A stretch of 30,012 bases of DNA from a virus, in the IMG/VR virus record IMGVR_UViG_3300013285_000052, positions 1 to 30,012 of that record, one strand, 5' to 3'. The notes beneath the pieces are model-generated. The model worked only from the letters and a program-made list of their open reading frames with translations, was not told where the DNA came from and searched no databases. Positions 3,760-22,299 of this stretch are shown here, piece by piece. Made by a program: the position numbers and the translations under genes. Each line of letters begins with the position of its first letter. The first letter of the stretch is position 1.

Positions 3760-4605
3760 TCACTTTTGTAATTTACCTGTAATGATCTTTGGTACGGTGT
3801 GATCCCACTTAATCGAATGATGCAATCTACGGTTCGTGTTTCCCATGCTTTTAACAGTAACCGAAGATGGATGAAACATTACGCTGTAAAAGGATTTTGT
3901 ATAAGTACCGAGTCCGAGATAAATATCAGTCATGCCCCCACTAGATTTTTGTGTTTGATTCTGTGTTAGTTGCAACCCAGTTACGGTGAGGAATAATTCC
4001 CCCCTGCTTCCATCTAGCACATAAGCGTTTACATCTTCGTTAATTCTGCCAACGAACTTAATCGGCCTGCTCGTCCTAATAAAAAAACTGTTCATCGCTT
4101 TACGCAGAATCCCTTTGCTGATAGATCCTTCTACCCCGCCTATGTGATCCCCGCCTTGACTAAAGGCAACAGTCAGCGCATTTGTATCCTCTAGGAGTTT
4201 AAGCATGGCATCAACTACCCCATCGAAGTTACGAATAGCGGTTGATTTAATTACATCGTTATGAATAAACCGATAGCAAAACGAGGTGTAATCATCATCC
4301 AGTTGGAGCATGTAATCTAACCCCATCTCTTTAGCGATTCTTTGAGATGCGTTTCGAGCATATACGATCGATCTTCTATCGTCTTGCGTATCAGCGGTAT
4401 CGAAAAGTTCTGATTCGGCTTTTTTATCGAACTTGATTACCCACTCTTCACCGAACTCGGCTTTATATTTATCTCCGAACTTATCTTCATTGTCGATAAT
4501 TATGTAAACCTTGCCTGTGTATCCGGATTTACGCAGAGTCCTCAGAGTAATCACATTGTCCGGTCTGCCATGAGTCAGGATAAATGCGGCGAAGTCATCC
4601 CTCAC
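3760..4605 (-). CDS. TAGT-like glycosyltransferase (GT-A fold), candidate DNA-modifying enzyme
   Basis: A 281-residue protein resembling the TET/JBP-associated glycosyltransferase family found in phages with hypermodified bases. The opening FAAFILTHGRPDN (5-17) and KVYIIIDNEDKFGDKY (32-47) are the family's nucleotide-sugar Rossmann-like start. YARNAS (82-87) and the acidic QLDDDYTSF (101-109) provide the DxD-type metal/sugar-nucleotide site. The start is GTG, preceded by AAGG at 9 bases, and overlaps the ParB gene by 11 bases, so the two are probably translated together. Family knowledge suggests glycosylation of a hydroxylated DNA base, but no TET/JBP, hydroxymethylase or thymidylate-synthase homologue is visible here, so the substrate is unknown. 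A surface-glycan role cannot be excluded. Confidence 0.72.
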   Translation of the reverse strand: MRDDFAAFILTHGRPDNVITLRTLRKSGYTGKVYIIIDNEDKFGDKYKAEFGEEWVIKFDKKAESELFDTADTQDDRRSIVYARNASQRIAKEMGLDYMLQLDDDYTSFCYRFIHNDVIKSTAIRNFDGVVDAMLKLLEDTNALTVAFSQGGDHIGGVEGSISKGILRKAMNSFFIRTSRPIKFVGRINEDVNAYVLDGSRGELFLTVTGLQLTQNQTQKSSGGMTDIYLGLGTYTKSFYSVMFHPSSVTVKSMGNTNRRLHHSIKWDHTVPKIITGKLQK

Positions 4606-5365
4606 TACGATCGACCTTTTCGAGTCGGTTTAGTTCATCCATAAAATCAACATACCCATAATGAATCGCATCGTTGATATCTATAATAACGAGAGCGGAT
4701 TTCTCCATAAGTTTTTGCATCTCAGGCGTAGCATGAGGATAATACTCAGCGGCTTTTTTGTAATTAAAAACTATATGCCTTGCCGCCGCCCCCATTAAAT
4801 AACTTTTCTCCTCATCGGGAATGTCTGCCAATAAAATCTCTTGGCTTAACTCGATAAACTTCTCATTGTCTGTTAATTCTATGAGCGCAGGCTTTTCCCC
4901 TACGATCTCGTACTGCGGGATATTTACTACTGCGGTGTACGCATTTTCTTCATCTCCGAAAATCTGCTCACCTTTTTGCATTTCTTTTACATCTTCGCTG
5001 GTAAATCCTAATTCGCCTACATCCCACCCATTCTCATCGAGATTAACGAGTTGAGATACGAGTACGCCACTATCCCATTCCGCCAATTCAGCCGAGCGAT
5101 TATCAGCGAGCGCATAAGCCTTAGCGGTATCAGCATCCCAGTCGGCAGGGCAGACACTTATTTGAATCTCAGTCCAGCCCAATGACTTAGCGGCTTCGAG
5201 CGTTCCGTTGCCAGCGATCACTACATTGTTATGAACTACTATCGGTTTGCGTTGCCCGAACTTACTTAGGCTCGCCTTGATAGCATCAAGATTACGGCTT
5301 GAGTGTCTCCGCGCGTTCTGCGAGTCGAGACTCAGACTCTCGATTGCTACTGTTTCCAATTCCAT
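4595..5365 (-). CDS. ParB/Srx-like nuclease-domain protein with conserved phage C-terminal module
   Basis: A 256-residue protein. Residues 1-100 are a ParB N-terminal-like domain: VAIESLSLDSQNARRH, then PIVVHNNVVIAGNGTLEAA (GNGT at 52-55) and ALADNRSAELAEW (85-97). This fold binds nucleotides and in phages is often catalytic rather than a partition factor. The C-terminal half, from VNIPQYEIVGEKP to AAARHIVFNYKKAAEYYPHA and MEKSALVIIDINDAIHYGYV, is a module I recall from other phage ParB-like proteins without a known function. No parA or parS-like array is present, which argues against segregation. Coupling with the glycosyltransferase and closeness to terminase suggest a DNA-modification or packaging role. 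Confidence 0.85.
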   Translation of the reverse strand: MELETVAIESLSLDSQNARRHSSRNLDAIKASLSKFGQRKPIVVHNNVVIAGNGTLEAAKSLGWTEIQISVCPADWDADTAKAYALADNRSAELAEWDSGVLVSQLVNLDENGWDVGELGFTSEDVKEMQKGEQIFGDEENAYTAVVNIPQYEIVGEKPALIELTDNEKFIELSQEILLADIPDEEKSYLMGAAARHIVFNYKKAAEYYPHATPEMQKLMEKSALVIIDINDAIHYGYVDFMDELNRLEKVDRSEG

Positions 5366-10294: not shown

Positions 10295-11092
10295 TTACGG
10301 ATTACGGCGGATTTGCCCCAGTAGAGCCTTGACGGATTCGGGCATTGGAGACCCTTCTGGAGCATCGTCCGCAGTAAATCTAGGTGGAACTATTGTCGGG
10401 GTGGTATTAACCTCTCTGAACCCTGTCTGAGCCCTTTTTTGGGGTAGTGGGGAGTCCAGCCATCTATCGCCATTCAGCCATGTCGCAGGATGAGCAGTAA
10501 AGGCAGGATCTCTGTTCGGATCTTTTGCGTATCGGTCAGCCCCTTCGATAATGACTTCTGCCGTTCCTCTCTTGAGAGCCTTCACCCACGAACGCATCGC
10601 AGTAGCCTTTCCGACTTTTATCGGATAGGTGTTCCAAAATATCTCGAACGATGTAGTTTCTTTATCTTTATCTTTATCTTTATCTTTATGGTTGAACGGT
10701 CGTTGAACGGTCGTTGAACGGTCGTTAGATTTATCCTCAGATTCCGTTGAACGGTCGTTGGATTCACGCTTGAGAGCAGACTTTTGACCAGCCTTCGAAG
10801 ACTGTTCAGACTTCTCTCGAACTTTCGCTAAATCATTTTCGACCCTAGCGTGTGTCCATATATCGCCGTCAATCCAAAAAAACTCGGCAAGGATCTCGCG
10901 ATTATCTTCCCACTCTTCCGGACTCATTCGAGCCACGAACGCCAGTCGATCTCCGGCATTGTCTAACGGCTTACCTCTTTGCCAGTAATTCATGAGGAGT
11001 AACAGGTACGCCCCATTTTGCGCCGCATTAAGGTGAGCAGTATCGGCAAGATAATCGCTTACATAAAGTTGCATATACGGTAGTGAACTCAT
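10295..11092 (-). CDS. Replication initiator/organiser (DUF1376 N-terminal domain)
   Basis: A 265-residue protein expected to recognise the origin and load the host helicase. Residues 4-75, starting LPYMQLYVSDYLADTAHLNA, resemble the DUF1376 domain found in phage initiators. Residues 95-145 are a polar linker of KSNDRST and (DK)n runs. The C-terminal domain (148-212), with FEIFWNTYPIKVGKATAMRS and HPATWLNGDRW, is the primosome-type module common to phage replication proteins. The linker DNA contains iteron-like repeats and an AT-rich tandem repeat, so the origin may lie within this gene as in lambda O. The start overlaps the whiB stop (ATGA). Confidence 0.83.
   Translation of the reverse strand: MSSLPYMQLYVSDYLADTAHLNAAQNGAYLLLLMNYWQRGKPLDNAGDRLAFVARMSPEEWEDNREILAEFFWIDGDIWTHARVENDLAKVREKSEQSSKAGQKSALKRESNDRSTESEDKSNDRSTTVQRPFNHKDKDKDKDKETTSFEIFWNTYPIKVGKATAMRSWVKALKRGTAEVIIEGADRYAKDPNRDPAFTAHPATWLNGDRWLDSPLPQKRAQTGFREVNTTPTIVPPRFTADDAPEGSPMPESVKALLGQIRRNP
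10661..10756. other. Candidate replication origin: iterons plus AT-rich tandem repeat
   Basis: Plus strand: four TTTATC hexamers and a fifth ending ATG (10661-10690) directly abut three head-to-tail 11-bp repeats GTTGAACGGTC (10691-10723). A fourth copy is at 10746-10756, starting 33 bases after copy 3, that is three periods, so all are in phase. The 11-bp period shifts codon frame, so repeats are kept at DNA level. Iterons next to an unwinding-prone AT tract is the layout of lambda-type origins. Confidence 0.6.
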
Positions 11093-11571
11093 TCTCTCCC
11101 AATCGCTTGCAGGATCATCTCTTTTGTAATTCCGTAACTGGCAAAATCTTTGTAAACTTTATTCTTAACTGTTGATTTGTGATTACTTAAAAGGGATTGC
11201 CGTTCTTCATTAGTCATTCCGCCCCATACTCCGTACTGTTCATGATGAGTTGCATACCCTAAGCATTGTCGCCATATAGGGCAAGGAGCGCAGGTAAATC
11301 TGAAAACATCTATGTCGATTAACTTAGATACCCCCCGATCCTCAATCTTGTAAAAAAAGTCTGTTGGAAGATTCTTACACGCGGCACGACCCCAGTCCAC
11401 TTCCGTATAATCAGGGTTTTCGTAGTTATCCGTAAGAGCATCTAACTGATCGCGGTTGTAAGTACCATCTGAAAACTGATGAATTTCGTACTTAATAATC
11501 CATCTGTGAATTGTTCTTTGCGTAACTCCATAACGAGTTGTCGCGGCGGCTACCGTAATTTTGACGGACAT
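11089..11571 (-). CDS. WhiB-family iron-sulfur regulator with N-terminal HTH
   Basis: A 160-residue protein. The WhiB core has four cysteines: C65 (AACKNLP), C94 and C97 (FTCAPC), C103 (RQCLGY), followed by the GVWGG turn (114-118) and a basic C-terminus. The family binds a [4Fe-4S] cluster, contacts the host principal sigma factor and changes transcription; phage versions can override host WhiB2. Residues 1-50, with ATTRYGVTQRTIHRWIIKYE, form a separate MerR/HTH-17-type helix-turn-helix not found in standard short WhiB proteins, so this one may bind DNA specifically. Overlaps the nuclease gene by 22 bases. It is the best evidence for an actinobacterial host. Confidence 0.92.
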   Translation of the reverse strand: MSVKITVAAATTRYGVTQRTIHRWIIKYEIHQFSDGTYNRDQLDALTDNYENPDYTEVDWGRAACKNLPTDFFYKIEDRGVSKLIDIDVFRFTCAPCPIWRQCLGYATHHEQYGVWGGMTNEERQSLLSNHKSTVKNKVYKDFASYGITKEMILQAIGRE

Positions 11572-14185: not shown

Positions 14186-14389
14186 ATGATTAGAGTTCAG
14201 ATCAGCCTGTGGAGCCTAGCCGTCATGGTCGAGGCTGAATTAAAGTACCCCGATCAGATTGACGATATCGTTAATCGGGCTAGCACCCTTTTCGTAACAG
14301 GCTTGATGGCGGCTAAGAATCAAGATTTAGACATCGCTCAGGTTAATTTTGTTGATCTTGGAGACGAAACTACCGCAGAAGAGGATTAG
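14186..14389 (+). CDS. Only plus-strand gene: small protein of unknown function
   Basis: 67 residues, MIRVQISLWSLAVMVEAELK at the start and a strongly acidic end (DLGDETTAEED). The ATG follows AAGG at 8 bases. It is divergent from the zinc-ribbon operon across dyad C and overlaps the proteasome-like gene tail to tail by 20 bases. Codon choice looks like the neighbours and no better minus-strand ORF covers the space. A regulatory role would fit the divergent layout, but no DNA-binding motif is clear. Confidence 0.62.
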   Translation: MIRVQISLWSLAVMVEAELKYPDQIDDIVNRASTLFVTGLMAAKNQDLDIAQVNFVDLGDETTAEED

Positions 14390-14918
14390 ACCTTTTTTGC
14401 TCTAAGTATAAAAAGGGAGCCGCCGTATATGGATCGTGCCGCCCTGCTATCTCTAAAGCCTCACTAATACTCGCCCCGGCCTCTAACGCTCCTATGGCAA
14501 GGCTCGAACCGCTTCCGACCCCATAGAATCCTGACGAAGTTAAACTCACGGCAAAATCGTCCGCAATATCGAAAACCTCTCCGCAGACCGCAATCAAGAA
14601 AGCGAATCTAGGCTCATCATCTTTATCGCCATCTAGTTTTAGATCGTTGTCCTTAAAACATTGTTTCAGGTTAGGGATCACCTTCGCAATTAAAAAATGG
14701 TAAAGATCCTTTCGATCTTCAACGGTTGGCTTAGGCGGAGTCCAGATATGTTGAGCGACATCGCAATAACTCGATAGCCCACTTCCGGCAATTATGAACT
14801 GACCTTTTTGAGAAATCTTCACCATTCGAGGGTGATTATATTTTCGCCCTGCCGTTACTAAAGAATCAGCGCCAAAAAATACGCCCTCTTTTTTTTGTAC
14901 GGCAACGATCGTAGTCAC
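14370..14918 (-). CDS. Proteasome/HslV-like Ntn-hydrolase
   Basis: 182 residues. After removal of Met, MTTIVAVQKK exposes Thr as residue 1. Numbered from that Thr, Asp17 (GADSLVTAG), Lys33 (RMVKI) and the Gly in IIAGSG line up with the catalytic Thr1/Asp17/Lys33 and oxyanion glycine of HslV and proteasome beta subunits. The C-terminal half has GVGSGSSLAIGALEAGASIS, matching the GSGS block that supports Thr1. The start is GTG directly after the upstream stop. No HslU or other unfoldase is visible. It could cleave peptides, self-process a phage protein or use the host ATPase. Confidence 0.8.
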   Translation of the reverse strand: MTTIVAVQKKEGVFFGADSLVTAGRKYNHPRMVKISQKGQFIIAGSGLSSYCDVAQHIWTPPKPTVEDRKDLYHFLIAKVIPNLKQCFKDNDLKLDGDKDDEPRFAFLIAVCGEVFDIADDFAVSLTSSGFYGVGSGSSLAIGALEAGASISEALEIAGRHDPYTAAPFLYLEQKRSNPLLR

Positions 14919-20937: not shown

Positions 20938-22299
20938 TTATGCGTACTTAACCGGACCAGCGGCGAGAACAGTAAACGCAGCCGAACCAGTTTTTAGAAT
21001 GGTGAACGAGTAAATATCTACTGCCGAAGCGTTACCTGCAGTTGGAGCAGTACCACCTGTCCATTTAGGAGTAATTGCGCCACCATCGACCTGCACCGCG
21101 CTCACATAAAACGCAGTCGTGTTAGTGATAAGCAAAGAGAAGGTAATCGCTTGCCCAGTAGTCATCACCGTATTCAGAGTTGTACCCGAAGCATAAGTTA
21201 TGTTGAGCGTTCCGTTAGCACTTGAGGCAGTAGTTAAATAATGAACCCCATTGTTAGTTTGTAGATAAGCCGTATATCCAGCAAAGGCAGTTGCGTTGAT
21301 ATACCACGCTTCGAGCGGATATTGGAAAACGCTACCTGCAAGAGTTTTGTTTGTAAGCGTGTCGGTAGTAGTACGAGCGACAAGTGTATCCGTAGCCGTA
21401 GGCAAGGTAAGCGTTCCTGTATTCACAATAGAAGAAATAACAGGTGCAGTAAGAGTTTTGTTTGTAAGCGTATCCGAAGTTGTACGCGCAACGATTGTAT
21501 CTGTGACTGTTGGAAGAGTAAGCGTTCCAGTATTAACGATTGTTGCTATTACCGGAGCAGTTAATGTTTTATTTGTAAGAGTATCAGTTGTTGTTTTTGC
21601 TACTAGCGTATCTGTAACATCCGGAAGCGTAAGAGTTTTGGCAGTAGTAAAGGCAGAAGTTAAAGTGCCTGTAATACCGGTTGTTCCAGTTACATCTATA
21701 TTTAAGCGTTTTGTAGCATCGGTTGCATCTACGATAAAAGTAGTTGAATCAGAAAGAGATTTGTTAGTTAAGGTGACTGCGTTAGTAAGAGTTACGCTTG
21801 CCGCAAAAGGTGAAGTTGTAAGTGTTCCGTAGTTAGTAATGTTTGCAGTAAGGATAGAAGTAACGCTTGTGCCTACCGCAATCTGACCTAATGCCAAAGA
21901 GTTTGCAGGTGTAGCAGGAACGGTTGGAGATGCGGCAGGTGTTCCAGCAATTACTTGGAACGACACATTGTTAAGCGTTCCTGTGTAGTAAGCATCGTTA
22001 ATCGTAACCACGATAAGGTCAATACGAGGATTGGAACCGCTCGCAGTAGAGATAGTAAGGTTAGTTGAAGCATCGTTGTACGCAATATAAGTACCCATAT
22101 TTGCTTGGGTAGTTCCCACAATAGCGGCGTAACCTGACGACACATTCACGGACATATTTCCGCCACCGTTTTGTGTAATCTGTAAGTCGGAAGAGTTTAT
22201 GAGTCCAGTTGTTGTAAAGATGGCCTTAGTAGTTAAACGATCATTTTCCGCAGGGTGAGATCCATTTTGTAGCCAACTTGGAGGTGTTCTTAATGCCAT
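20938..22299 (-). CDS. Minor tail / fibre protein with tandem repeats
   Basis: 453 residues. Residues 1-150 (PRIDLIVVTINDAYYTG and NSLALGQIAVGTSVTS) are the typical actinophage minor-tail N-terminal module attaching to the tip. Residues 222-320 contain 37-residue repeats with TLTLPTVTDTIVARTTSDTL and TNKTLTAPVISSIVNTG, a likely beta-helical shaft. The C-terminus (330-453) is a separate beta domain, likely receptor-facing. Confidence 0.75.
   Translation of the reverse strand: MALRTPPSWLQNGSHPAENDRLTTKAIFTTTGLINSSDLQITQNGGGNMSVNVSSGYAAIVGTTQANMGTYIAYNDASTNLTISTASGSNPRIDLIVVTINDAYYTGTLNNVSFQVIAGTPAASPTVPATPANSLALGQIAVGTSVTSILTANITNYGTLTTSPFAASVTLTNAVTLTNKSLSDSTTFIVDATDATKRLNIDVTGTTGITGTLTSAFTTAKTLTLPDVTDTLVAKTTTDTLTNKTLTAPVIATIVNTGTLTLPTVTDTIVARTTSDTLTNKTLTAPVISSIVNTGTLTLPTATDTLVARTTTDTLTNKTLAGSVFQYPLEAWYINATAFAGYTAYLQTNNGVHYLTTASSANGTLNITYASGTTLNTVMTTGQAITFSLLITNTTAFYVSAVQVDGGAITPKWTGGTAPTAGNASAVDIYSFTILKTGSAAFTVLAAGPVKYA
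21340..21636 (-). repeat. 111-bp coding tandem repeats in the fibre gene
   Basis: Two full and one partial copy of a 37-codon unit begin at residues 222, 259 and 296 of the fibre protein. The copies have diverged in third positions, so they are not recent duplicates. Confidence 0.7.

Follow-up and report, generated by a model that had tools for sequence, protein, structure and literature searches.

The closest described counterpart of the locus analysed here is the origin of phage lambda, which lies inside gene O: there, as in its Stx-phage relatives (PMC7466680), dyad repeats that serve as initiator sites occupy the linker-coding middle of the initiator's own gene. The lambda iterons are 18 bp long and lie at 20, 24 and 23 bp (about two turns), the array starts at codon 117, an AT- and purine-rich tract follows 3′ of the iterons on the coding strand (the AT maximum, at 39130, comes just after iteron 4), and a helicase-loader gene follows the initiator gene. 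Work on the Stx-phage O protein shows that origins of this kind are open to testing through changes to the iterons that do not alter the protein (PMC7466680). The Rac prophage, which carries a DUF1376 homologue, ydaU, beside ydaV, has been reported to have an active origin, oriJ (PMC3945230).

We analysed a 30,012-nt linear fragment of a phage genome (hereafter "the window"), for which a first-pass annotation had proposed a lambda-O-like origin within a replication initiator gene. Sequence comparisons indicate that the array at 10691–10756, together with the AAAGAT tract that adjoins it, is very probably a phage replication origin inside its own initiator gene, and that such arrays recur, with other site spellings, throughout the large and almost unstudied DUF1376 family. 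Searching the literature, we found no report of iterons or an origin in DUF1376/ydaU genes; most subscription journals fell outside that search, and priority is unproven.

The host gene and its product

The gene (10295–11092, minus strand) encodes a 265-residue protein that matches PF07120 with E=1.2e-21 and 77.3 bits, against a gathering cut-off of 30.1, making it a DUF1376 member. Its PHROG matches are to 'primosomal protein' (2.8e-46) and 'replication initiation protein' (2.8e-22). In cultured Pseudomonas phages the order is cro/cII, DUF1376, DnaC/P, which gives DUF1376 the position of lambda O and, as in lambda, places a helicase-loader gene after the initiator gene. These matches and this place in the replication module agree with the first-pass identification of the protein as a replication initiator. 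The Rac ydaU–ydaV pair shows the same neighbourhood as the cultured DUF1376 phages, the 'primosomal'/YdaU proteins being the PF07120 family. The window also encodes SSB, RusA, exonuclease and WhiB-like proteins, and no DnaB, DnaC or P was present among the window proteins scanned.

AlphaFold2 models the initiator with a mean pLDDT of 85. The predicted layout comprises an N-terminal domain at residues 11–80, a long helix at 82–116, a disordered linker at about 117–139 and a helical C-terminal domain at about 140–215 with the motifs FW..YP/TWLN..RW. For residues 11–80 the model gives helices plus a hairpin in winged-helix order, and we therefore predict that the DUF1376 N-terminal domain is a winged helix: this reading comes from the order of secondary-structure elements and not from PDB fold matches, since a fold search with the model returned only insignificant winged-helix (MarR-like) matches (best E=0.47) and a PDB sequence search with the family profile gave chance matches only. 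The pLDDT falls below 50 at residues 124–138, and the tandem iterons (codons 124–134) fall on this predicted disordered stretch, in keeping with the earlier description of the repeat region as a linker.

Several other genes of the window were also noted. A minus-strand gene at 11089–11571, which overlaps the start of the DUF1376 gene, encodes a WhiB domain behind an N-terminal segment that gives a weak match of excisionase/HTH type, and suggests an actinobacterial host. The minus-strand product of 3760–4605 matches PHROG 842, beta-glucosyl-HMC-alpha-glucosyltransferase (E=2e-70); its gene adjoins a ParB-like gene (4595–5365), with a DNA methyltransferase (930–2000) nearby, and this glucosyltransferase-like and methyltransferase region is possibly a module for modification of DNA or something else. 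An HslV-family peptidase-like protein (PHROG 1040, E=6e-26) is encoded on the minus strand at 14370–14918, and a 111-bp repeat (37 residues) is present in two tandem copies at 21340–21585, within a 453-residue gene (20938–22299), where it is likely a repeated tail-fibre segment.

An 11-bp dyad array in the linker-coding segment

The sequence GTTGAACGGTC has four exact copies in the window. Three are in tandem at 10691–10701, 10702–10712 and 10713–10723 (together 10691–10723, annotated on the minus strand; GTTGAACGGTC on the plus strand, GACCGTTCAAC on the coding strand), and a fourth, at 10746–10756 (minus strand, codons 113–116), starts exactly three periods (33 bp, 3 × 11) from the third, beyond a two-period gap with no recognisable sites (10724–10745). 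Each copy contributes to a dyad AACGGTCGTT that crosses the boundary between 11-bp units and has no strand of its own, giving dyads at 10695–10704, 10706–10715, 10717–10726 and 10750–10759. Across the 30-kb window AACG-NN-CGTT has four matches, all in the array, against a chance expectation of 0.45; 0/100 shuffles of the window reached that count, and no second cluster of exact dyads lies elsewhere in it. The repeats and the TTTATC hexamer beside them proved to be placed just as the first-pass annotation had them; the dyad, described there as contained in each iteron, instead runs from one unit into the next.

Directly 3′ of the array on the coding strand is a candidate DNA-unwinding element at 10659–10689 (minus strand), an AT- and purine-rich (AAAGAT)n tract that encodes KDKDKDKDK and that TRF reports as (TCTTTA)5.2 over the same span. 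The most AT-rich 30-nt stretch within the gene (10661–10690, 83% AT) overlaps this tract. The order along the coding strand is iteron 4, the two-period gap, iterons 3, 2 and 1, and (AAAGAT)n.

The repeats were said to encode different residues in each copy. That holds for the three tandem copies, which encode DRST / TTVQR / RPFN, one per reading frame; the fourth breaks the rule, being in frame with the third, so that both give NDRST. The broader claim, that the repeat is held at the DNA level, stands up to synonymous resampling, in which codons are redrawn with the protein unchanged and the result is scored on its best non-triplet self-repeat: the window linker scores 25 at lag 11, compared with 6.9±1.6 after resampling, a value matched by 0/2000 resamplings (p<0.0005). 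The same test recovered lambda O, our positive control (lag 20, p=0.002). In the ydaU gene of Rac-SA53 (locus L081), unlike the window, there is only a degenerate array, GTTCAAACAAATGTT ... GTTTGAACATG (lag 11, p=0.11).

Dyad arrays across the DUF1376 family

A first search gave 79 viral loci, most of which have GTT(C/G)AAC cores in 11-bp phase with varying spacers and amino acids; adding bacterial genomes and more viral contigs brought the set to 185 distinct proteins in 128 clusters. When multiples of three are left out, the period at which the linker DNA repeats best is 11 bp in 78/128 clusters, 22 bp in 15 and 23 bp in 7. By the synonymous null (p<0.02) the linker repeat is significant in 72/128 clusters, 54 of them at lag 11, compared with 18/296 control ORFs from the same loci, some of which may encode other kinds of initiator. 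In 84/128 clusters the search called a period-11 dyad (8.4% in the null); by this test the other 44 have no such array. The relatives change their amino acids and keep an 11-bp dyad array, which is the opposite of the outcome that the first-pass annotation had named as telling against the proposed origin, amino acids kept and repeat lost.

The polarity of the AT-rich tract is also conserved: the 30 nt of the gene richest in AT lie 3′ of the array, no more than 75 nt away, in 48/68 cases and 5′ of it, at up to the same distance, in 3/68, and the 3′ tract is purine-rich on the coding strand family-wide.

The 158 sites of the AACG class are spread over the three reading frames almost evenly (49/54/55), with start-to-start gaps of 11 bp (91 times), 22 bp (14) and 23 bp (6). 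Their dyad bases are kept at any codon position, third positions included, while the 2-bp spacer and the centre base are free; sites were gathered at up to 2 mismatches, which inflates core conservation, a bias that does not enter the synonymous null. In one of the frames G or A at the centre would give TGA/TAA, and 98% of the AACG-class sites in that frame have C or T there; in the other two frames C and G are about equally common at the centre.

In other DUF1376 lineages the half-sites are AGCG, AGCA, TGCG or similar words, and period and symmetry are unchanged. A tree built from the DUF1376 domain alone, linker excluded, implies at least 14 changes of dyad type with palindromic symmetry retained, a number that is approximate given the few columns and many unresolved forks. 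Two changes lie within strongly supported clades of near relatives, one being the clade of the window (support 98/95), where AACG gives way to AGCG. Symmetrical change of both half-sites is the expected trace of a dyad-binding protein with evolving specificity. We set aside the mutual information between residues and site type in the DUF1376 domain (positions 47, 87, 52 and 48), which is confounded by phylogeny.

Natural domain swaps show which part of the protein the sites accompany. Dyad arrays occur in 43/60 DUF1376 proteins that have the common C-terminal domain and in 41/68 that have a different C-terminus, as against 5/29 proteins with the common C-terminal domain and no DUF1376, and none of those five has a DUF1376 site type. 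Site type therefore tracks the DUF1376 domain, which is indirect evidence, from sequence comparison, that this domain binds the sites.

Phage initiators of the HTH_36 type (PHROG 270-like) resemble DUF1376 proteins in having DNA repeats in the linker that immediately precedes the shared C-terminal domain, but differ in their HTH_36 N-terminal domain and in having mostly 22–23 bp repeats (CAGGGGTGACAG...) in place of 11-bp dyads. At loci L075, L077–L079, L334, L336–L338, L343 and L345–L347, the 22–23 bp linker repeats (for example CAGGGGTGACAGACCAGGTAA) give p of about 0.007 under the synonymous null; these initiators probably represent a separate family of intragenic origins.

Discussion

The sequence data support a lambda-O-type design in the repeats, the side on which the AT-rich tract lies and the position in the linker, and do not support membership of the lambda O protein family. 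We tried that family (Phage_rep_O, PF04492) and rejected it: the window protein matches only PF07120, hhalign against lambda O gave a probability of 0.1%, and BLASTP gave no match, while lambda O itself does match PF04492. We likewise rejected 18-bp iterons at a spacing of about 20–24 bp for the window, whose period is 11 bp. The two systems share their polarity and nearly the same starting point in the gene (codon 113 in the window), but the window packs a dyad of 9–10 bp into every 11 bp, and site spelling varies widely within the DUF1376 family, unlike that of lambda O sites. The comparison supports the view that the window contains a lambda-type intragenic origin by design, not by family.

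Three other explanations deserve weighing. The linker could be a selected low-complexity disordered peptide (NDRSTTVQRPFN, KDKDKD), with the DNA repeat a by-product of slippage and coding. The linker is indeed predicted to be disordered, its KD/TD/EED repeats are compatible with triplets, and the window's three tandem copies do not differ at all, as a recent tandem duplication would leave them; even so, we consider this explanation very improbable, since 11 is not a multiple of three, the repeat is lost on synonymous resampling, the sites occupy every reading frame, keep their third positions and leave spacer and centre free, and relatives alter the amino acids yet retain the dyad array. 

Operators and parS sites also typically have dyads at helical spacing, and the window does contain a ParB-like gene; the sites might accordingly be operators for autoregulation of the replication operon, or parS-like partition sites for the ParB-like protein of 4595–5365, with no origin present. 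We regard this as unlikely: the sites lie within a coding region beside an AT-rich tract and not at a promoter, their type tracks the DUF1376 domain over phages of different hosts, and no parB is annotated near the arrays in those neighbourhoods of cultured lambda-like phages that we examined. A third idea makes the array an element for copy-number control or handcuffing to which the initiator binds, with replication starting elsewhere in the phage genome; it draws on the fact that plasmid iterons also serve control and on a GC skew that does not indicate the array. It sits poorly with an AT-rich tract at a conserved side and distance, as for a melting site, and with the single cluster of exact dyads in the window, and we give it very little credence. 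The skew itself, which the first-pass annotation had put forward as a check, is the one testable sequence-level expectation that the data did not bear out: it fails to point to the array, with the cumulative minimum of the window near 20.8 kb and not 10.7 kb. In nine relatives of ~40 kb and in lambda, the extremum likewise lies at a distance from the initiator gene and goes with gene strand. Because the lambda origin too lies off the extremum, and because skew follows gene strand, we count it neither for nor against an origin.

Taking the array as an intragenic origin, we infer a course for initiation. The N-terminal winged-helix domain of DUF1376 would bind the AACG-NN-CGTT / CGTT-N-AACG sites, probably as dimers, given that the sites are dyads. 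With sites once per 11 bp, successive protomers would stack on one helical face to form a compact nucleoprotein array, which would melt the AT-rich, strand-asymmetric tract alongside. Recruitment of the replicative helicase would fall to the C-terminal domain or, where the phage has a DnaC/P gene, to a partner, and replication would begin at this site.

With less assurance than for the window, we lean towards extending this reading to the whole family: DUF1376 phages and prophages of Actinobacteria-type, gammaproteobacterial and rhizobial hosts would have their origin inside the initiator gene as an array of dyads at 11 bp (one helical turn), the half-sites having been rewritten symmetrically many times along with the protein, and the sequence of the linker peptide being set by the DNA of the origin.

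These findings suggest that an origin hidden in the linker-coding part of the gene is also found in one or more initiator families that show no detectable homology to lambda O; a third family that uses a linker-embedded origin is probably that of the HTH_36 initiators, whose repeats are 22 bp long. DUF1376, annotated as a domain of unknown function in many phages and prophages, is thereby connected to a specific initiator–origin system in which some 80 origins are predicted, each with its site spelling. The symmetrical changes of site type among near relatives provide material on the evolution of origin recognition by an initiator and, if the whole-family reading is true, the family would offer a natural series of matched switches in initiator–origin specificity.
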